Assembly: GCA_021200775.1 (NCBI GenBank)
Contig: JAJQGB010000009.1
Span: 191,773 to 255,772 of the forward strand
DNA from: Oscillospiraceae bacterium
GTDB lineage: Bacteria; Bacillota; Clostridia; Oscillospirales; Ruminococcaceae
DNA: 64,000 nt
Direction of reading: 5' to 3'
The notes beneath the pieces were generated by a model. The model was given only the letters and a program-made list of their open reading frames with translations, ran no database searches and had not been told where the DNA came from. Positions 1,785 to 50,636 of this stretch are shown here, in pieces. Each line of letters starts with the position of its first letter. Position 1 is the stretch's first letter. A program made the position numbers and the translations under genes.

Positions 1785-2973
1785 CCCTAACAGCAAGGGC
1801 AGATTCGGTATCCACGGCGGACAGTATGTCCCCGAAACGCTGATGAACGCCGTCAACGAGCTTGAAGAGGCTTATAACTACTATAAAAACGACCCGAAGT
1901 TCAACCGGGAACTCGACCGCCTTATGCGTGAATACGCAGGGCGTCCGTCGCTTCTTTACTATGCTGAGAAGATGACAAAAGACCTGGGCGGAGCGAAAAT
2001 CTACTTAAAGCGTGAGGACCTCAACCACACCGGTGCGCACAAAATCAATAATGTTCTCGGGCAGGTTCTTCTCGCCAAGAAGATGGGCAAGACCCGAGTA
2101 ATCGCCGAAACGGGAGCCGGTCAGCACGGAGTCGCAACCGCCACCGTCGCCGCACTTATGGATATGGAGTGCGAAGTTTATATGGGCGCCATCGACTGCG
2201 AAAGACAGGCTCTGAACGTCTACCGCATGAAGCTTTTGGGAGCAAAAGTCCACCCGGTTGAGAGCGGCACCCGAGTCCTGAAAGACGCCGTAAACGAGAC
2301 CATGCGTGAATGGACGAACCGTGTCAGCGACACCCACTATGTTTTGGGAAGTGTCATGGGACCTCACCCGTTCCCGATGATTGTCCGTGACTTCCAAAGC
2401 GTCATCAGCCGTGAGGCAAGGGCTCAGATTCTTGAAAAAGAAGGCAAGCTTCCGGCGGCAGTTCTCGCCTGTGTCGGCGGAGGAAGCAACGCCATGGGCA
2501 TGTTCTATCACTTCATCCCAGATGAAGGCGTCCGCCTTATCGGCTGTGAAGCGGCAGGAAAGGGAATCGACACCGATAAGCACGCCGCCACTATGGCAAA
2601 AGGCAAATTAGGCATCTTCCACGGCATGAAGTCCTACTTCTGCCAGAACGAATACGGTCAGATTGACGAGGTCTACTCTATCTCAGCAGGTCTTGACTAC
2701 CCCGGCATCGGTCCCGAGCATGCTAATCTTAAAGACACCGGCAGAGCCGAATATGTCCCGATAACCGACGACGAAGCGGTCGACGCTTTCGAGTATCTTT
2801 CAAGAACCGAGGGCATTATCCCCGCAATCGAGAGCTCCCACGCCGTTGCGTATGCAATGAAGATTGCAAAGGACTTCAGCCCCGACGACAGCATCATTAT
2901 CTGCCTTTCCGGCAGAGGAGACAAGGACGTTGCGGCAATCGCCAGATACAGAGGAGTTGATATTTATGAGTAG
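1762..2973 (+). CDS. trpB: Tryptophan synthase beta chain
   Basis: [41 protein letters not shown]. Confidence 0.98.
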
Positions 2974-3733
2974 AATTGCAAGCCTCAAAGCGGGGAAGTG
3001 CTTTGTTGGATTCCTCACCGGCGGCGACCCGAACCTTGATAAAACCTACGACTATATTTTAGATATGGCGGAAGCCGGAGCCGACCTCATCGAAATCGGC
3101 GTCCCGTTCTCCGACCCGATTGCCGAGGGAACGGTGATTCAGGAAGCAAATATCCGGGCTCTTTCAGTCGGCACGACTACCGACGGCATCTTCGACTGTG
3201 TCGAAAAAGTCAGAAAGAAGACCGAAGTGCCGCTGGTTCTCCTGACATACGCAAACCCCGTTTATACCTACGGCAAGGACAGATTCTTCGGAAAATGCGA
3301 GGAAGTCGGCATCGACGGAGTAATCGTCCCGGATGTCCCGTTTGAAGAGAAAGCGGAGTTTTCAGAAGAAGCGAAAGCCCACCACATCGACATCATCTCG
3401 ATGATAGCTCCGACGAGCGACGAGCGCATCACAAAAATCGCCTCAGAAGCTCAGGGATTCCTCTACATCGTCTCCTCCATGGGTGTAACCGGCGTCCGGG
3501 AGAAGATAACGACCGATGTCAGGTCGATAGTCGAGAAAGCCAAAGCCGCAACCGATATTCCAATTTTCATCGGCTTCGGTATCAGCACCCCCGAGCAGGT
3601 CAAGGAATACACCTCCTACGCCGACGGCGCCATCGTCGGCAGTGCGATAGTAAAAATCATCGCCCGAAACGGCGAAAATGCCAGCGAAGAGCTCAAAGAA
3701 TACGTGAATGCGATGAAGGCTGGAACACGGTAA
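2966..3733 (+). CDS. trpA: Tryptophan synthase alpha chain
   Basis: [31 protein letters not shown]; start chosen at the ATG overlapping the trpB end rather than ORF start 2864. Confidence 0.96.
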
Positions 3734-7437: not shown

Positions 7438-8892
7438 ATGAAGAAATTTATCGCATTGCTTCTCGCAGGAATTATGATAGTCGCACTTGTCGGCTGTGGC
7501 AGTTCCTCCAGAGAAGTAATCCAGCTTACCTTCGCTACCCAGGATGCCGAGGCTATTCTTGCAGCCGCAGGTATCATGCTTCCCGATGTCGAAGAGACAG
7601 CGGCGGCAGGAACCACAGTCAAGTGGTTTGCTTGGTACGACGATATGCAGAACTATTCAGACGATGAGATTATCAATTCCGGTTACTGGACCTTCCAGGA
7701 AAAGTACGGTTGCTCCGTAACATGGGTTGAGTGCACTTGGGACACAAGATTTGATGAGCTTGCTACTCTTATCCTGGCTTCCACTTCGCCCGACTTCTAT
7801 CCCGGACATGATGATATCTTCCCGTCCAAGTGTATCAAGGGTATGTTCGTCCCTGTTGACGACTACATAGACTATGATGATGCTCTTTGGGCAGCTGAGA
7901 AGGATTACGCCTACACCTACTATTCCATCAAGGACAGACCTTACGTTATCGTATTCGATAACACCTTCAACAATGTCTGCGCTTATAACAGAAGAGTCAT
8001 GGAAGAGTACGGCTATGACGATCCCGCCGAGCTTTACTACAACAACGAGTGGACATGGGATACCTTCTATGAGATGTGCATCGACTTCACCGACGAGTCT
8101 GAGAACAGATACGCTCTCGACGGTTGGTACTATGGCTTGGCTCTCATGCATTCCTGCGGTGAGACAATAGTCCAGTATGATACCGCAAATCAGCAGTTTG
8201 TATCGAATCTTGACTCTGCGGCTATCGAGCGTGCGGCTAACCTTCTTTACGAGCTTTCCAAGAACAACTGCCTCTATCCTGTATGGGACAACGGTTGGAC
8301 TATCAGAAACAGCGTTGAAGGCGGCGGCATGAACGAAGGACTCTGCCTCTTCTATCTCGGCGGCACTTGGATGTTCACCGGCTCTGTCAGCACCATCAGC
8401 CCTGTCTGGGGCGACATGGAGGACGGCGAGCTCATGTTTGTTCCGCTTCCTCGTGACGATGACGGCGACGGCAACTACTACACCGAGTCCATCCCGACCG
8501 GCTACTGCATCATCCAGGGTTCCACCAATCCTGAAGGCGTTGCGCTCCTCTCCGCCTGCATGAGATTCAAGGTTCTCGACCCGACAGTTGTCAACATCGA
8601 CAGACTCCAGCTCGAAGAGACCTATCTCTGGACTGAGGAAATGCTCGACATGTACGATGAGTGCTATGCACTTTCAACTGCAACCCACGTTATCGTTACC
8701 TATGGCGAAGGCTACGGCGACAAGCTCTACACAGTAGTTGACTCTCTCGAAAGATTCGCAACTTCTTCTGACGCTTTCACATGGGCACAGATGAAGGAAT
8801 CCTATTCCGAGCAGATTGAGTACTATGTAAACCAGCTCAACGAGCAGATTGCGGCATACGACCCGTACTCGATGAACGATTATGAAGGATAA
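7438..8892 (+). CDS. Extracellular solute-binding lipoprotein (ABC-type family)
   Basis: Lipobox VGCGSSSREV; VKWFAWYDD; paralogous to the CDSs at 37150, 38843 and 49173. Confidence 0.8.
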   Translation: MKKFIALLLAGIMIVALVGCGSSSREVIQLTFATQDAEAILAAAGIMLPDVEETAAAGTTVKWFAWYDDMQNYSDDEIINSGYWTFQEKYGCSVTWVECTWDTRFDELATLILASTSPDFYPGHDDIFPSKCIKGMFVPVDDYIDYDDALWAAEKDYAYTYYSIKDRPYVIVFDNTFNNVCAYNRRVMEEYGYDDPAELYYNNEWTWDTFYEMCIDFTDESENRYALDGWYYGLALMHSCGETIVQYDTANQQFVSNLDSAAIERAANLLYELSKNNCLYPVWDNGWTIRNSVEGGGMNEGLCLFYLGGTWMFTGSVSTISPVWGDMEDGELMFVPLPRDDDGDGNYYTESIPTGYCIIQGSTNPEGVALLSACMRFKVLDPTVVNIDRLQLEETYLWTEEMLDMYDECYALSTATHVIVTYGEGYGDKLYTVVDSLERFATSSDAFTWAQMKESYSEQIEYYVNQLNEQIAAYDPYSMNDYEG

Positions 8893-9074: not shown

Positions 9075-9107
9075 AAACTACAGCACCCAAACCGACCGTG
9101 CTATAAT
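9075..9107 (+). promoter_or_regulatory. Island-type promoter AAACTACAG-N18-TATAAT
   Basis: Same AAACTAC-N20-TATAAT geometry at four other places in the window. Confidence 0.7.
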
Positions 9108-12706: not shown

Positions 12707-12739
12707 AAACTACGGAAACAAAACTGAAGAGAGTATAAT
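12707..12739 (+). promoter_or_regulatory. Island-type promoter AAACTACGG-N18-TATAAT
   Basis: Shared motif and spacing, upstream of FHA gene 12778. Confidence 0.7.
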
Positions 12740-13980: not shown

Positions 13981-14013
13981 AAACTACGGCATCAGAAATG
14001 ACGCTGGTATAAT
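13981..14013 (+). promoter_or_regulatory. Island-type promoter AAACTACGG-N18-TATAAT
   Basis: Shared motif and spacing, upstream of FHA gene 14120. Confidence 0.7.
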
Positions 14014-14119: not shown

Positions 14120-14812
14120 ATGGAAGTTCAGAACAAATTAACAAGGTGCCCGTCTTGCGGAAACTACTACGATGCAGCAACTCATGCAACCTGCCCCACC
14201 TGTGGCGGCTCCGGTGCAAGCACTTTTGGAACCACCTCGGCTCCTAACGTCGTAAGCGGCGGTGTAAGTGCAACAGGAGATCCCTTCGGACCTACTGCTC
14301 CTCCGGTTGACAATTCATATGCGACCAGCGTCAGCAGAATGGGCGACACAATTCCGGTAACTCCTCATCATTCTGAGAGCAGTGAAGCTGAGGCTTTCGA
14401 GCCCACAAGAATGGCTCCTCCGGATGACTCCAGGAACAGCTCTTATGACAGCGAAATCGACCCTGTCTGCGGCTGGCTCGTCTGCATCGACGGTCCCGAA
14501 AAAGGCACCGACTTCAGAATCCATGCCGGCTACAACTACATCGGACGTGAAATCGGCGACATCCACATCTCCAACGACATGCAGATTTCCCGTGAGAAGC
14601 ACGCAATGGTTGCTTACTCAGCACGTAGCAATTCATTCGTCTTCGGTCCTGCCGACGGCAGAAACATCGTATATCTCAACAACGAGGAGGTCTATGCTCC
14701 CACCAAGATTAAGGCTTACGATGTAATCGAAATCGGCACCACCAAGCTTCTGTTCGTTCCGCTTTGCAGTGAGCAGTTCTCCTGGAAGCAGGGCGAGGAT
14801 AAGGTAGACTGA
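14120..14812 (+). CDS. Zinc-ribbon plus FHA domain protein
   Basis: CPSCGNYYD...CPTCGG; YNYIGREIGDIHISNDMQISREKHAMV. Confidence 0.88.
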   Translation: MEVQNKLTRCPSCGNYYDAATHATCPTCGGSGASTFGTTSAPNVVSGGVSATGDPFGPTAPPVDNSYATSVSRMGDTIPVTPHHSESSEAEAFEPTRMAPPDDSRNSSYDSEIDPVCGWLVCIDGPEKGTDFRIHAGYNYIGREIGDIHISNDMQISREKHAMVAYSARSNSFVFGPADGRNIVYLNNEEVYAPTKIKAYDVIEIGTTKLLFVPLCSEQFSWKQGEDKVD

Positions 14813-16907: not shown

Positions 16908-18347
16908 ATGTTGAAAAGGCTTTCTTGCCTTCTTATGGCACTAGTTCTTATGTTGACTCCTCTTGCGGCAGTCAATGTATTCGCAAGCGTCGGCTCAGAC
17001 GCGGCTGAAGGAGTAATCCTGGTTTATGCGCAGTTCCACAACACATCAGGCGATCTTATCTGGGAACAGTACGGTTCCGGATTCGGTGTCGCTTACGAAA
17101 AAGGTTCAAAAACCGTAAATGTCGGAGATGTAACCGATCTGTTCATCACAAACAGACACGTTATCACCTATGAGGAATACTCCTCATCAGGCGATTATCT
17201 GGTAGCTGACAAGGTCTACATTATCTACACCAACGACGCTTATGAATATACCGAATATTACACCGGAAGTCTCGACTATATCGACAGCAAGACAGACGCC
17301 GAGACTTCAAGAATGGTTCTTTGCACCGTCGTAGATTACTCTACAGATTATGACTGCGCTATCCTGAAGGCTGACTCCACTGCTTCGGGCAGAGTTGCAC
17401 TTGAACTCGCTGAGTCCGCTGATGAAGCTTCTTCCGGCGATAAAGTTTATGCTGTCGGATACCCCGGACTTAACTATACGGTATTCGATCTCGGCGACCT
17501 TCAGTATTCTGACGCCCTTGAAGCTTACTATATGTCAATAAAGCTCGACGGCAGAGTTTCCGCCGCTTCAGTTACACAGGGTATCGTATCGAGAATCGGA
17601 AGTTCAACATACCTGTATAATCAGAATGTAATTAGCACCGATGCGGTTATAATGTCCGGAAACTCCGGCGGACCGCTGGTGCATGAGGACGGCAAGGTTG
17701 TCGGAATCAATACCTACGGCATCGAAGACGAATCGAATACATACTATGCAATCGATATCTCATACGCATTTGACCTTGCAAAGGACAACGGCTACACCCT
17801 TATTGCTTCATCTTCAAGCACAAATATCGGTCTTATCATCGGTATCATCGTTGCGGCAGTTGTTATAATCGTACTTATCGTGGTTATAGTCTGCGTAGTC
17901 AGCAAGAGCAAGAAGACCACTGAGCCTGTTGTTACAGGTGCTTCCGTTCCTCCGACTGCTATTGACAAGACTGGTCCGGTTGAACCTACTTCTGTAAATC
18001 GTGTAGAATCCGGATTCCCGGAAGGACCCAGAGTTCAGGGTGTTGCAGGCTCACTCGTAGGAAGCCGTTATCCGATTACCGGAACCCTCAGAATGGGAAG
18101 AAATCCTCAGTGCAACGAGATTGTTGTTGCAGGTGCCGAAGGCGGCGTCAGCAATGTTCACTGCCAGCTTGAATATGTAAACGGCGTTGTTTACTTAAAA
18201 GACCTCGGCTCCACCTATGGTACATATATCGACGGCAAAGGCAGACTTGCGGCTAACCAGCCGATGCCTCTTAAAGTCGGCGACAGATTCTACCTGGGCT
18301 CCAAGAAGGAAATGTTCGAGATTGTCAACAAGGGAGGCACGAAGTAA
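16908..18347 (+). CDS. Secreted trypsin-like (S1C) protease domain - TM - cytoplasmic FHA domain
   Basis: Signal peptide; ITNRHVIT, DYDCAILK, GNSGGPLV; TM; LRMGRNPQCNEIV...VSNVHCQLE...LKDLGSTYGTYI. Confidence 0.9.
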   Translation: MLKRLSCLLMALVLMLTPLAAVNVFASVGSDAAEGVILVYAQFHNTSGDLIWEQYGSGFGVAYEKGSKTVNVGDVTDLFITNRHVITYEEYSSSGDYLVADKVYIIYTNDAYEYTEYYTGSLDYIDSKTDAETSRMVLCTVVDYSTDYDCAILKADSTASGRVALELAESADEASSGDKVYAVGYPGLNYTVFDLGDLQYSDALEAYYMSIKLDGRVSAASVTQGIVSRIGSSTYLYNQNVISTDAVIMSGNSGGPLVHEDGKVVGINTYGIEDESNTYYAIDISYAFDLAKDNGYTLIASSSSTNIGLIIGIIVAAVVIIVLIVVIVCVVSKSKKTTEPVVTGASVPPTAIDKTGPVEPTSVNRVESGFPEGPRVQGVAGSLVGSRYPITGTLRMGRNPQCNEIVVAGAEGGVSNVHCQLEYVNGVVYLKDLGSTYGTYIDGKGRLAANQPMPLKVGDRFYLGSKKEMFEIVNKGGTK

Positions 18348-32142: not shown

Positions 32143-32175
32143 AAACTACGGGAGAAGAGTTACGGGTGGTATAAT
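32143..32175 (+). promoter_or_regulatory. Island-type promoter AAACTACGG-N18-TATAAT
   Basis: Same motif and spacing as the FHA/kinase promoters; upstream of peptide/radical SAM genes. Confidence 0.72.
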
Positions 32176-32232: not shown

Positions 32233-32499
32233 ATGGCAGATTTATCTGAAAAAATGGATGGCAAGCAGGCGGCAGACGACGGTAAGGATTACGTCGAGGT
32301 TAAGGGCATAAAAGTCAAGAAATCCCTTTTGAAACGCTTTGAAAACAAAAAGAAGAAGGACGATGACGAAACGCCACCGCCACCACCGCCATTTGATATG
32401 CCGTGCCTCTACGGTTGCCCGACAGCAAAAGACTTGCCCGGAGCTGTGCCTGACTGTATGCTGGCGACGTTTGATGGCTATAAAATCAAAGAGCTCTGA
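32233..32499 (+). CDS. Small Lys/Pro-rich, three-Cys peptide; candidate radical SAM substrate
   Basis: 88 aa, KKKKDDDETPPPPPPFDMPCLYGCPTAKDLPGAVPDCMLATFDGYKIKEL; RBS aaaggagag; directly precedes the radical SAM gene. Confidence 0.7.
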   Translation: MADLSEKMDGKQAADDGKDYVEVKGIKVKKSLLKRFENKKKKDDDETPPPPPPFDMPCLYGCPTAKDLPGAVPDCMLATFDGYKIKEL

Positions 32500-32507
32500 G
32501 GTGGCAC

Positions 32508-34112
32508 ATGCAATCTGACAGATATCCGCTTCGGGTGCTTCTGTGGGAGGCGACTCTTCGTTGCAATGCCTACTGCGAGTTCTGCGGGAGCAGGTGTGGC
32601 GATAATGAGATAAGAAATGAGCTGACCCGTGAAGAAATCTGCGAAGCCTTCAGAGACATCGCCGAAAACCTGAATCCGGGTGAAGTCATGATAAATGTCA
32701 CCGGCGGCGAGCCACTTTTAAGAAAAGACCTGCCGGAAATCATGAGCTATGCCCAAAGTCTCGGATTTTCTTGGGGACTTGTCAGCAACGGAACACTTCT
32801 TAACCATGAGATGGCGGACAAACTCAAAAAAGCCGGGATGAAGACTCTTGCAGTCAGCATCGACGGCTTGGAAAGCACACATAACTCAATCCGTGGCGTA
32901 AAAAACGGCTTTTCAAGGACTATTGAAAATCTCAAAGCTATCCACACCGAGCCATATCTTGAATCCGTCATGATAACGACAGTCGTTTCAAAGAAAAATA
33001 TCGGTGAGCTTGAAGAACTGAAGCAGTTTCTTCTGGGAGTGCCATTCGATATCTGGCGAATCTGCCCGGTTGACCCGATTGGAAGAGCTAGTGGCAATGA
33101 TAATCTCAGCCTTTCAAAAGAGGAACTCAGATGGCTTTTTGGGTGGATTTCAGAGCAGAGAAACGAGAACCTGCCGTTTGCAGTTACGACTTCGTGCAGT
33201 CACTATCTCGGCGAGTTTGAGATGAAGACAAGGGATTATCCCTTCAACTGTGGCGCCGGAAAGACGGTAGGCAGTATTCTGGCGAACGGAGATATTTTCG
33301 TCTGTCCCGACGTGCCAAAAAGACCCGAGCTGATTCAAGGAAATGTCAGAACTACGCCGTTTTCCGAAGCATGGAAAAACCGCTTTGAATATTTCAGGAA
33401 TCCGTTTAATCGCAAGATTGGCGATTGCTCGGATTGTGAGTATTATTCAAAATGCGGCGGCGACAGCACGCATACATGGAATTTCGACGAAAATGCTCCA
33501 AACTTCTGCCCGAAAAAGCTCGGGCTCGTCAAGGAAGAAAAATTTTCGGAACGTGAAGCCAATCTTGAAGAAATAATCAGAAGCTATAAGAGCGACAGTA
33601 GTCTATTCGACATCACCGTCAAGGCTCAGGGCAGGGCGGAGGACTGCGTTGTCATAGAGCCGGAGGCGGCAGACGAAATCCTCAGCTTCTTTGAGTGGGG
33701 AACAGGTTTGAGAACAGACGAGAAGCTCTGTGCACTTTACGGCAGTCTCTTTAGTAATAAAGACCTTCCCACAGGCAACATGATAGCAGTTATCAGGAAG
33801 GCTATTCCGATGGAAGCTGAATCTGACGAGAAACATCTCAAAATAGCCGAGGAGATTCTTCGGAAAGCCCGGAGCGAAACAACAGACAAAATGCAGTTTC
33901 TCGGATTTGCGCACAGCCACCCGAACGAGCTGACAATTGCAATGAGCTTAGGCGATTGGGAGTTCCACAAGCGCCTTTTTGAAGAGGACTGGCGTCAGGC
34001 ACTTACAGTTATCATAAACCCTCAGAAAAAACAGATTGCGGCATACACAGGAATTGCCGCCGACCACAGCGAGCTTCACCTGCTACAGCACAGCAAGAAA
34101 TTCTTTTCATAA
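32508..34112 (+). CDS. Radical SAM/SPASM protein with C-terminal JAMM (JAB) domain
   Basis: CNAYCEFC; GGEPLLRKDL; SPASM Cys set CGAGK...CPD...CSDCEYYSKCGG...C; C-terminal HSHPNELTIAMSLGD fits HxHP-x7-S-x2-D. Confidence 0.88.
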   Translation: MQSDRYPLRVLLWEATLRCNAYCEFCGSRCGDNEIRNELTREEICEAFRDIAENLNPGEVMINVTGGEPLLRKDLPEIMSYAQSLGFSWGLVSNGTLLNHEMADKLKKAGMKTLAVSIDGLESTHNSIRGVKNGFSRTIENLKAIHTEPYLESVMITTVVSKKNIGELEELKQFLLGVPFDIWRICPVDPIGRASGNDNLSLSKEELRWLFGWISEQRNENLPFAVTTSCSHYLGEFEMKTRDYPFNCGAGKTVGSILANGDIFVCPDVPKRPELIQGNVRTTPFSEAWKNRFEYFRNPFNRKIGDCSDCEYYSKCGGDSTHTWNFDENAPNFCPKKLGLVKEEKFSEREANLEEIIRSYKSDSSLFDITVKAQGRAEDCVVIEPEAADEILSFFEWGTGLRTDEKLCALYGSLFSNKDLPTGNMIAVIRKAIPMEAESDEKHLKIAEEILRKARSETTDKMQFLGFAHSHPNELTIAMSLGDWEFHKRLFEEDWRQALTVIINPQKKQIAAYTGIAADHSELHLLQHSKKFFS

Positions 34113-37149: not shown

Positions 37150-38595
37150 CTATCGAGCGTTGTATTCGTCAATTTGTGCGTTCAGTTCTTCGATGTAGTA
37201 ATCAATCTGGTCTCTGTAGGTTTCTTTGAGCTGTGCCCAGGTTGAAGGCGATTTGTCACGTGTGATTCCGTTGGAGATAATTCCGAGAGCGTTGTCAAGT
37301 CCTTCCGGCAAATCTCCTGTGATGTCCATGATCTGATGGCTTGCCGCCAGCTCGTAGCAGATGTCGTCCATTGCGAGCATTTCGTCTGTCCAGAGATATA
37401 TCTCCTTAAGCTGCTTTTGATCGATATCGACAACCGTCGGGTCGATTATCTTGAATCTCTCGCAAGCAGCCAAGAGAGCCGCACCAGCGTGGTTTGAACC
37501 GCCGGTAATGAGCATATATCCCTTTGGAGAGGAGAGGAGGTAGTAGTTACCATCACCGCTTGAATCCCTCGGAATCGGGCAGAACATGACTTCGCCTTCG
37601 GTAATATCTCCCCAAAGAGGAGTAATTTCGTCAACCGGCATGGTGAAAGCACCTGTGCCGATTATGTAGAACAAGCAAAGACCGTCTGCGATACCTGCTC
37701 CGAATTGTGCACCACCTTTAGTTCTCAGAGCCCAATAGTTGTCACCTTCATGGTAAGTGCAACCGTTCTTCACAAGGTCGTAAATTAGGTTCTGAACACG
37801 CTCGATTTCGGGAGAATCCATATTTGAGTAGAAAACTCCGTCTTCAATCTGCAAAATCTGCTGACCAGTCGAATCGATAAGACCGCACTGGTAGGAATAA
37901 CCGTCAAGTGCGTATCTGTTCTCATCTCCATCAGAGAAATCAAGACACATTTCGTAGAACACATCCCATGTCCACTCGTTGTTGTAGTAGAGCTCTGCCG
38001 GGTCGTCAAATCCCCATTCCTCGATAACTCTTCGGTTGTATGAAACAACATAGTTATAGGTGAGGTCGGTGACAATTGCATAGTGCTCGTCGCCTAAAAC
38101 GAAGTAATCAGCAGTCTCTGCTACTCCTGACCAAAGGGGATTGGTGTAGTCGATGTAGTCATCAACCGCTGTAAAGGTGCCCTTGATACACTTCATCGGG
38201 TAAACAGCAGTAGCATTGGCTCCTGCCGGGTACATATCCGGCGATTTTGAAGAAAGGATCAGGTTTGCCAGGTCGTCGAATCTGTCGAAATAGTTTGTTT
38301 CAATCCATTCGATTGAGCTTCCGTATTTCTCGGTAAATGTGTAATAGCCGGTGTTGACAATCTCGTCTTCGGAATAGTTGTTGAACGGGTCATACCAGGC
38401 AAACCATTTGACGGTGGTGCCGGCACCTTCTGCTTCATCAACGTCCGGAAGTGTGATTCCTGCGGCGGCTAAAATTGCCACTGAGTCATCAGTCGACAGA
38501 GTCAGATACACAACTTCCCTTGTCGAAGTGCCACATCCGACCAGGGCAACAACCATGATGATTGTACACAGTATGGCTGAAATTCTTTTAAACAT
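37150..38595 (-). CDS. Extracellular solute-binding lipoprotein, paralog
   Basis: Lipobox VGCGTSTREV; close paralog of 38843. Confidence 0.8.
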   Translation of the reverse strand: MFKRISAILCTIIMVVALVGCGTSTREVVYLTLSTDDSVAILAAAGITLPDVDEAEGAGTTVKWFAWYDPFNNYSEDEIVNTGYYTFTEKYGSSIEWIETNYFDRFDDLANLILSSKSPDMYPAGANATAVYPMKCIKGTFTAVDDYIDYTNPLWSGVAETADYFVLGDEHYAIVTDLTYNYVVSYNRRVIEEWGFDDPAELYYNNEWTWDVFYEMCLDFSDGDENRYALDGYSYQCGLIDSTGQQILQIEDGVFYSNMDSPEIERVQNLIYDLVKNGCTYHEGDNYWALRTKGGAQFGAGIADGLCLFYIIGTGAFTMPVDEITPLWGDITEGEVMFCPIPRDSSGDGNYYLLSSPKGYMLITGGSNHAGAALLAACERFKIIDPTVVDIDQKQLKEIYLWTDEMLAMDDICYELAASHQIMDITGDLPEGLDNALGIISNGITRDKSPSTWAQLKETYRDQIDYYIEELNAQIDEYNAR

Positions 38596-38842: not shown

Positions 38843-40291
38843 TTATGAGGCGTTGTACGCATCAATCTGTGCGTTCAGCTCATCGATGTAGTAATCAATC
38901 TGATCTTTGTAGGTTTCCTTGAGCTGTGCCCAGGTGGACGGATTATTGGTTCTTGTAATGCCGTTTGAGACGGAATTGAGAGCACTGTCTAAGCCGTCGT
39001 TCAGGTCTCCCGTCAGGTCCATTATCGGGTCGCGCAAGGCTATTTCGTAGCAGATGTCGTCCATTGCGAGCATTTCGTCTGTCCAGAGATATATCTCCTT
39101 AAGCTGCTTTTGATCGATATCGACAACCGTCGGGTCGATTATCTTGAATCTCTCGCAAGCAGCCAAGAGAGCCGCACCAGCGTGGTTTGAACCGCCGGTA
39201 ATAAGCATATATCCCTTTGGAGAGGAGAGGAGGTAGTAGTTACCATCACCATCATCGTCTCTCGGAAGCGGGCAGAACATGACTTCTCCCTCACTCACAT
39301 CACCCCAGAGAGGAGTGATTTCCTCAACAGTCATAGTGAAGTATTCGGGAGCGATTATGTAGAACAGGCAGAGACCGTCGGCAATTCCTGCGCCGAAGTT
39401 CGCACCGCCCTTTTCTCTCAGAGCCCAGTAGTTAGTGCCTTCGTGGTAGGTGCAACCGTTCTTCACGAGGTCATATATGAGGTTCTGAGCTCGCTCAATC
39501 TCGGGAGAATCTATATTTGAATAGAATGTGCCGTTCTCGTCAATCTGCAGAATCTGCTGTCCGGTCGATTCGATTATTCCGCCCTGATAGGCATAGCCGT
39601 CAAGGGCATATCTGTCTTCATCGCCATCGGAGAATTCGATGCACATTTCGTAGAATACATCCCATGTCCACTCGTCGTTGTAGAAGAGCTCTGCCGGGTC
39701 GTCAAAGCCGTACTCTTCAATAACTCTTCTGTTGTAGGATACAACGTTGTTATAGGCGACGTCGGTAACAATTGCATAATGCTCTCCGCCCAGGACGAAG
39801 TAGTCTGCGGCGTCAACCATTCCTGACCAAAGCGGGTCGGTATAGTCGATGTAGTCGTCAACCGACACGAAGGTGCCCTTTATGCACTTGGTCGGATATA
39901 CGGCAGTCGAGTTGAAGCCTGCAGGGTACATGTCGGGCGACTGACTCGACAGAATCAGGTTTGCAAGGTCGTCGTATCTTTCAAAGTAGGTTGTCTCAAT
40001 CCATTCGATGGAGCAACCGTATTTTTCTGTGAATGTGAAGTAACCGGTGTTTACGATTTCATCCTCGCTGTAGTTATGGAACTGGTCGTACCATGCGAAC
40101 CACTTTACAACCGAATTCGCTCCTTCGGCTTCCTCGACGTCGGGGAGGGTAATTCCTGCCGCCGCCAATATCGCCGCAGAGTCCTCGGTTGACAGTGTAA
40201 GGTATACAATCTCTCTTGATGAACTGCCGCACCCGACAAGGGCAATAACCATGACGAGAGTACATATTATAGCTGAAATCCTCTTGAACAT
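38843..40291 (-). CDS. Extracellular solute-binding lipoprotein, paralog
   Basis: Lipobox VGCGSSSREI. Confidence 0.8.
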   Translation of the reverse strand: MFKRISAIICTLVMVIALVGCGSSSREIVYLTLSTEDSAAILAAAGITLPDVEEAEGANSVVKWFAWYDQFHNYSEDEIVNTGYFTFTEKYGCSIEWIETTYFERYDDLANLILSSQSPDMYPAGFNSTAVYPTKCIKGTFVSVDDYIDYTDPLWSGMVDAADYFVLGGEHYAIVTDVAYNNVVSYNRRVIEEYGFDDPAELFYNDEWTWDVFYEMCIEFSDGDEDRYALDGYAYQGGIIESTGQQILQIDENGTFYSNIDSPEIERAQNLIYDLVKNGCTYHEGTNYWALREKGGANFGAGIADGLCLFYIIAPEYFTMTVEEITPLWGDVSEGEVMFCPLPRDDDGDGNYYLLSSPKGYMLITGGSNHAGAALLAACERFKIIDPTVVDIDQKQLKEIYLWTDEMLAMDDICYEIALRDPIMDLTGDLNDGLDSALNSVSNGITRTNNPSTWAQLKETYKDQIDYYIDELNAQIDAYNAS

Positions 40292-49172: not shown

Positions 49173-50636
49173 TTATTCGATAAGCTCTCCCGTATCGAGA
49201 TAGTTATCAATCATAACGTTCAGCTCTTCTACATAGTAGTCAAGTCTGTCGCCATAGGTTTCCTTCAGCTGTGCCCAGGTGTAGCTACCGCCGTTGCGGT
49301 TGATGCCCCAGTCGAACGAGTTATATGCCGAGTCAAGGCTGGTTCCCAGGTCGCCAGTGTAGTACATGACTACATTTGCAACCGCCAGGTCATAGCACTC
49401 GTCATACATTTCGAGCATTTCGTCGGTCCAGAGATAGGTCTCTTTGAGCTGCTTCTTGTCGATGTTGACAACAGTCGGGTCAATGGTCTTGAATCTCTCA
49501 CAAGCCGCCAGAAGAGCAACTCCCTCAGGGTTCTTGGCACCGGTGATGAGCATGTAGCCGGTAGGAAGCGAGTTGAGATAATAGATTCCGTCGCCGTCTT
49601 CGTATCTCGGAAGCGGAACGAACATGATTTCGCCCTCTTCGATGTCGCCCCAAATCTGGTTCATTTCTTCAACGGTGAGCTTAAGTCCTGTAGGAACGTC
49701 GCAAATCCAGAAGAGGCAAAGTCCTTCCTTAACGCCTGAGCCGTAAACGAAGTCGTTTCTTCCTGCCCAGTAGTCGATGCCTTCGTGGTAGACGCAGTCG
49801 TTCTTTACGAGGTCGTAGATGAGATTCTCGGCAATTTCAATAAGCGGGTCGTCGAGGTTGGTATAGAAGTGACCGTCCTCATCCTTCTGGATGATGGTGC
49901 GTCCCGTCGACTCTTCAACGATACTGTTTACATAGTACCATCCGTCGAGAGCATATCTGTCCTTATCAGGATCAGAAAAGTCGATGCACATATCATAGAA
50001 TACTTCCCATGTCCACTCGTCGTTCCAGTAGAGCTCAGCGGGGTCGTCGTAGCCATACTCTTCAATGACTCTGCGGTTGTAGGGGACAATCGACTTGAAG
50101 GTTACGTCGGTGACGAAAGCAAAGTGCTGGTCGCCGAGAGCGAAGTACTCAGCCGCATCAGCCATTCCCGACCAAAGGGGCTCGGAATAGTCGATATAGT
50201 CGTCAACCGGCTGATACATTCCCTTCATACAGCTGTAGGGGAAGGTAGCGGTGTTTGAGGTTCCTGCGAGAGCGAAGTCAGGTGACTTACTCGACAGAAT
50301 CAGGTTTGCGAGGTCGTCAGAGTAGTTTTCGTATGTAGTCTCAATCCATTCGATTGTGCAACCATACTTTTCTGTGAATGTGAAGTAACCGGTGTTTACG
50401 ATTTCGTCCTCACTGTAGTTGTGGAAGTCGTCGTACCACGAGAACCACTGGATTTCGGTGCCAGCGGCTGAGGTTTCCTCAATGTCCGGCAGGGTGATTC
50501 CTGCGGCGGCGAGAATAGCTGTTGCATCTTCTGTCGAAAGAGTCAGGTAGACAATTTCTCTTGAAGAACTGCCGCATCCGACCAGCGCCAGAATCATGAT
50601 TACAGCAAGACTCAGTGCCAAAATTCTTTTCTTCAT
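49173..50636 (-). CDS. Extracellular solute-binding lipoprotein, paralog
   Basis: Lipobox VGCGSSSREI. Confidence 0.8.
   Translation of the reverse strand: MKKRILALSLAVIMILALVGCGSSSREIVYLTLSTEDATAILAAAGITLPDIEETSAAGTEIQWFSWYDDFHNYSEDEIVNTGYFTFTEKYGCTIEWIETTYENYSDDLANLILSSKSPDFALAGTSNTATFPYSCMKGMYQPVDDYIDYSEPLWSGMADAAEYFALGDQHFAFVTDVTFKSIVPYNRRVIEEYGYDDPAELYWNDEWTWEVFYDMCIDFSDPDKDRYALDGWYYVNSIVEESTGRTIIQKDEDGHFYTNLDDPLIEIAENLIYDLVKNDCVYHEGIDYWAGRNDFVYGSGVKEGLCLFWICDVPTGLKLTVEEMNQIWGDIEEGEIMFVPLPRYEDGDGIYYLNSLPTGYMLITGAKNPEGVALLAACERFKTIDPTVVNIDKKQLKETYLWTDEMLEMYDECYDLAVANVVMYYTGDLGTSLDSAYNSFDWGINRNGGSYTWAQLKETYGDRLDYYVEELNVMIDNYLDTGELIE

Follow-up and report, generated by a model that had tools for sequence, protein, structure and literature searches.

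A radical SAM/SPASM-JAMM fusion beside an LYGCP peptide gene in a kinase/FHA island: a candidate peptide-maturation cassette

What might a protein that joins a radical SAM enzyme to a metalloprotease do when its gene directly follows that of a small peptide, within an island of kinases and FHA proteins? This arrangement occurs in a gut-type bacterium, in a 64,000-nucleotide stretch of DNA (the window). The open reading frame (ORF) for the peptide, P0002, is separated by 8 nt from that of the enzyme, P0001. A first-pass annotation of this DNA had reported both ORFs and their spacing, and the same coordinates and lengths were obtained when these were re-derived. The best explanation for the locus as a whole, to which we assign roughly an even chance, is a two-gene peptide-maturation cassette in which P0001 would mature P0002. 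The enzyme would modify Leu59-Tyr60-Gly61 of the peptide, where tyramine excision, as in the PlpX class, is the candidate reaction. The fused JAMM half may then cut the modified peptide, a step that would most likely release or trim the tail past the motif, and the product would probably act on or through the phospho-signaling system of the island.

The features of the two genes are as follows.

32233 to 32499, + strand: P0002, candidate substrate peptide of 88 amino acids; no Pfam or NCBIfam family
32407 to 32421, + strand: LYGCP motif, P0002 residues 59 to 63, with the proposed modification site Leu59-Tyr60-Gly61; LYGCP is also present in the partner protein of locus L019
32508 to 34112, + strand: P0001, radical SAM/SPASM-JAMM fusion enzyme of 534 amino acids; full-length relative in L019
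32562 to 32585, + strand: radical SAM motif CNAYCEFC, P0001 residues 19 to 26 (PF04055); C19, C23 and C26 invariant
33249 to 33509, + strand: SPASM-type auxiliary cluster region (PF13186), cysteines 248 to 334, with C230 upstream; invariant cysteines
33546 to 34109, + strand: C-terminal JAMM/JAB domain, residues 347 to 534, with E405, H469, H471, S480 and D483, assigned from sequence
33912 to 33956, + strand: JAMM motif HSHPNELTIAMSLGD, HxH-x8-S-x2-D; HTHPNELTPALSRPD in L019 and HTHPNNLSVFMSGTD in L084

Domain structure and occurrence of the fusion

P0002 begins with a region rich in lysine and aspartate, followed by a run of six prolines, an LYGCPTA motif and a tail of 25 residues past YGCP. 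Cysteines at positions 58, 62 and 75 lie close to the LYGCP site, and the peptide shows neither a lipoprotein nor a signal sequence. The G+C contents of P0001 (0.479) and P0002 (0.483) are near that of their neighbors and thus give no sign of recent transfer.

P0001 scores above the Pfam cut-offs for both Radical_SAM (PF04055, 78.6 bits) and SPASM (PF13186, 31.1 bits). The three cysteines of the radical SAM core are invariant among 16 relatives, as are C230, C248, C266, C307, C310, C316 and C334. Thus, the CNAYCEFC core identified in the first-pass annotation is confirmed. The SPASM cysteine set that it proposed is also present, but its spacing departs from the textbook arrangement; because the CxxCx5C segment is not followed by x3C, we regard it as a variant of that set. 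The best NCBIfam model is TIGR04133 (rSAM_w_lipo), whose score of 282.6 bits falls below the cut-off of 425, followed by TIGR04053, AhbD (134), NirJ2 (127) and mycofactocin MftC (118). TIGR04103 (nif11-class maturase 3), which we equate with the PlpX class, reaches 103.5 bits, far below its cut-off of 725 and lower than AhbD, NirJ and MftC, and a Nostoc enzyme annotated as a maturase of this class is 27% identical to P0001. In a tree of these enzymes, the TIGR04133-like and TIGR04103 groups are not placed as sisters, and the deep branches (MftC, PqqE and TIGR04103) are long and poorly separated. The chemistry of P0001 could therefore differ from that of PlpX. The full-length AlphaFold model is good for the radical SAM part only, and the top matches in a fold search are SkfB, SuiB and related maturases.

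The C terminus of P0001 is, judged by homology to clostridial JABs, probably a genuine but divergent JAMM/JAB domain. As in the JAMM/MPN+ metalloproteases (PF01398, PF14464), it presents Glu, HxH, Ser and Asp in order, and all five residues are conserved in the L019 fusion. The motif lies where the first-pass annotation had placed it, but calling it an exact HxHP-x7-S-x2-D match was too strong, since P0001 has one residue more between HxH and Ser than the textbook HxH-x7-S-x2-D. The same x8 spacing is found in L084, a stand-alone clostridial JAB. Against the Pfam JAB model (PF01398; gathering score, 22.5), the window copy scores 14.7, the L019 copy 23.1 and L084 26.7. PADLOC JAB models match both fusion copies, and an hhalign comparison of its profile with that of clostridial JABs reaches 92.9% probability (E 3.6e-7), with the whole domain and the catalytic E405 aligned. 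AlphaFold modeled this part with low confidence (pLDDT below 50 in the full-length model; mean pLDDT of 37.8 for the JAMM part modeled by itself), so the JAMM fold is supported by sequence only.

Unlike known JAMM/MPN+ enzymes, the domain is joined to a radical SAM enzyme and is accompanied by no evident ubiquitin-like substrate. The earlier suggestion of isopeptide or ubiquitin-type cleavage was not borne out, and we rejected a ubiquitin-like/E1/E2 reading, as no such gene is present in the region examined. A role in defense was likewise rejected: the PADLOC matches of P0001 reflect generic viperin/JAB similarity, and those of the kinases are to generic kinase models.

The fusion is real and rare. 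Searches of genome contigs and taxon samples for P0001 or its C-terminal domain recovered it, besides the window, only at L019 in Clostridiales AH.3_3, a MAG, where the protein is 42% identical to P0001 along its length. The two fusions form one clade (support 96/97), and the presence of the same full-length protein in a second genome rules out chance or an assembly artifact. No further fusion was found in samples of the genus (31 genomes), the family (299), the class (388), the phylum (398) or the L019 family (251), and scans of viral contigs yielded no relative. This rarity is approximate, as the samples are partly redundant and the profile, built from two rows, is weak. Relatives of P0001 occur in 21 of the 299 family genomes (about 7%); nearly all are non-fused proteins of about 350 amino acids, and most enzymes of the family have no JAMM domain.

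The xYGxP motif as a candidate modification site

At L019, the start codon of the enzyme gene overlaps the stop codon of an upstream gene, which encodes P0004, an FHA protein of 163 amino acids. Its tail reads AVLYGCPNADM, compared with PCLYGCPTAKD in P0002, and the two share LYGCP[TN]A. A homologue of the 88-amino-acid peptide itself was found nowhere else, L019 included. The first-pass annotation had called for a search for the fusion with a conserved peptide neighbor; the fusion thus recurs once, with LYGCP carried on an FHA protein in place of the peptide.

Indeed, a motif of this kind recurs throughout the enzyme family and across phyla. Of 37 distinct radical SAM genes of the family, 32 have a neighboring ORF on the same strand that encodes xYGxP. 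The motif is present in 41 of 169 adjacent ORFs, compared with a mean of 2.98 and a maximum of 8 upon shuffling. YGPP accounts for 82 of the 93 motif instances, such that the feature common to relatives is Tyr-Gly-x-Pro, not cysteine; in front of Tyr, V is the commonest residue, and L, I and A come next. Non-fused relatives, including those of the Ruminococcus type, adjoin proteins in which VYGPP is repeated and many of which resemble lipoproteins, and relatives from Bacteroidales (Phocaeicola, Parabacteroides) and Treponema adjoin TIGR04134 lipoproteins that carry EYGTP, EYGSP or CYGMP. The precursor at the Nostoc locus, whose enzyme is annotated as nif11-class maturase 3 (PlpX-like), ends in ALYGLPPELF, and in Agathobacter the gene of a relative comes after a short ORF whose product ends in VMYGTGVRM. 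This recurrence replaces the general argument made initially, that SPASM enzymes modify peptides, with a specific motif and a candidate reaction. We infer that xYGxP is the substrate site, an assignment that is well supported, and P0001 very probably acts at LYGCP of P0002.

The TIGR04133/TIGR04134 and VYGPP systems are the closest radical SAM relatives and share the adjacent xYGxP partner. The window differs in that P0001 scores below the TIGR04133 cut-off, has gained a JAMM domain and lies behind an island promoter, and in that P0002 shows no lipoprotein or secretion signal; P0002 does not match TIGR04134, with whose members it has only xYGxP in common.

Further loci show related features. 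Locus L124 pairs a more distant radical SAM protein whose C terminus is TPR-like (1030-2472) with an SLH-type protein (2491-3441) that has three Cys-rich xYGxP repeats. Ruminococcus-type xYGxP proteins at L014 (9337-9906) and L015 (2076-2627) carry dockerin-like repeats and are thus possibly modified proteins bound for the cell surface or a cellulosome. At L116 (3147-3860), three DUF1843 peptides adjoin a radical SAM enzyme near the PlpX class, and ORFs there read QPYGAGIREA and LYAAGIREA.

The reaction itself is suggested by spliceotides. PlpX excises a tyramine equivalent at Xaa-Tyr-Gly and the ends are joined as an alpha-ketoamide (PMC11002830). PlpXY accepts sites of the forms MYG and LYG, and the splice tags tested, built on PIRP-x-YGLPI, include GGPIRPLYGLPI-type sequences (PMC10533398). 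The PlpX and PlpA precursor loci resemble the window in that the gene of a SPASM radical SAM enzyme adjoins that of a small X-Tyr-Gly-x-Pro protein (LYGLP), and such an adjacent X-Tyr-Gly site, in the form LYG, is present in both P0002 and P0004. They differ in that no Nif11 leader, RRE partner, epimerase or transporter is seen here and in the fusion of P0001 to JAMM; specifically, none of the ORFs of 60 or more amino acids beside P0001 or the L019 enzyme looks like a PlpY-type RRE partner. On balance we lean slightly toward tyramine excision as the candidate chemistry of P0001, given the close match of the motif. The same reaction would then be a candidate for the widespread TIGR04133/TIGR04134 systems of gut Bacteroidales and for the Ruminococcus-type VYGPP systems, for which the literature searched gives no published function.

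Linkage to the kinase/FHA island

Kinases, FHA proteins and PP2Cs in the window form an island that is also present in at least five congeners. The promoter of the peptide/enzyme operon recurs before other genes of this island.

32143 to 32175, + strand: island promoter AAACTACGG-N18-TATAAT before the peptide/enzyme operon; exact match
12707 to 12739, + strand: copy before FHA gene 12778; exact
13981 to 14013, + strand: copy before FHA gene 14120; exact
9075 to 9107, + strand: copy before kinase gene 9123; one mismatch
14120 to 14812, + strand: island FHA protein served by the promoter at 13981; homologue of the FHA domain of the L019 FHA-LYGCP protein

Across the 2.06-Mb genome, the promoter has only these four copies (three exact, one with a single mismatch), each of them within the island and on the island strand, and a reversed-pattern control gives no match. 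The promoter also precedes orthologous island genes in two congeneric species, G1068 and G1075. The claim that this promoter is island specific therefore stands on firmer ground than when it was first made. Together with loci L132, L138, L143 and L148, the window copies show the promoter to be conserved across species of the genus.

Lying behind this promoter, the cassette is probably coexpressed with the kinase and FHA proteins of the island. The FHA domain of the L019 protein matches FHA 14120 (33% identity over 95 amino acids; E 2e-13 in a 6-protein database) far better than it does the other window proteins compared. Promoter and FHA homology together argue for a tie between cassette and island that is well supported, and genomic setting, promoter and FHA partner all resemble bacterial Ser/Thr kinase-FHA-PP2C islands. 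The window differs from other islands of the genus in the slot bounded by the last kinase and the conserved gene 34170 (- strand), which in island-bearing congeners holds other genes; in G1075 the promoter precedes this different slot gene as well. The P0002/P0001 pair is absent from 30 congeners, including five with the island, and the fusion is absent from the other samples, so the module is an accessory insertion in the island rather than a fixed part of it.

Alternative functions of the cassette

Each component of the proposal has a competitor. The same motif might be the target of other radical chemistry of the kind that MftC, PqqE or thioether-forming maturases perform on their peptides, such as a cross-link, an oxidative decarboxylation or another change at the YGxP tyrosine or the nearby cysteines, with JAMM processing afterwards. 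The higher scores of P0001 with MftC, AhbD and NirJ2 than with TIGR04103, the fold matches to SkfB and SuiB, and the three cysteines of P0002 near the site would all fit; but relatives conserve Tyr-Gly-x-Pro and not cysteine, and LYG is a natural splicease site (PMC10533398). We consider such chemistry a substantial minority prospect. Cleavage of P0002 by the JAMM half, for its part, we hold at a little under an even chance. The domain might instead be deconjugating or regulatory, removing some other adduct, or being bound and inhibited by the alpha-ketoamide product such that the enzyme acts as a sensor. Both fusions retain the JAMM residues, splice products have been reported to serve as a moiety for protease inhibition (PMC11002830) and the majority of the family's enzymes do without such a domain; against this, no ubiquitin-like protein or conjugating enzyme was identified in the region examined, and we judge the idea unlikely, if a shade less so than the one that follows.

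The pair could also be a self-contained modified-peptide system that merely resides in the island and is functionally unconnected with the kinases. Its absence from the congeners and the fact that the L019 pair is not beside kinases are as expected of such a passenger. However, the pair uses the island's own promoter, which in this genome is confined to the island, the putative L019 substrate is an FHA protein resembling the coregulated FHA 14120, and the L019 genome encodes kinases of the same type elsewhere (51% identity), which together make an unconnected insertion rather improbable. Of the earlier idea of a modify-and-release enzyme, then, the maturase-JAMM fusion, the neighboring peptide as probable substrate and the island tie are retained, whereas isopeptide cleavage finds no support.

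A probable splicease-like maturase and a metalloprotease within one polypeptide, linked by a promoter to a phospho-signaling island, were not found described together. In its most complete form, the maturation proposal would have the kinase-FHA island use as a component a peptide with a spliced backbone (alpha-keto-beta-amino acid), which one bifunctional enzyme both makes and releases, with the spliced site carried in another lineage by the FHA protein itself; we regard this full version as improbable, with perhaps a quarter of our confidence behind it. If true, ribosomal peptide splicing would also modify intracellular signaling proteins, of which the L019 FHA-LYGCP protein is the example, beyond secreted and lipoprotein products.

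Two other observations concern the island. At 16908-18347, it encodes a protein that combines a trypsin-like protease with an FHA domain; should the peptide bear an alpha-ketoamide that inhibits proteases, this protein is a possible target. Four similar solute-binding-type lipoproteins (7438-8892, 37150-38595, 38843-40291 and 49173-50636) are encoded around it.
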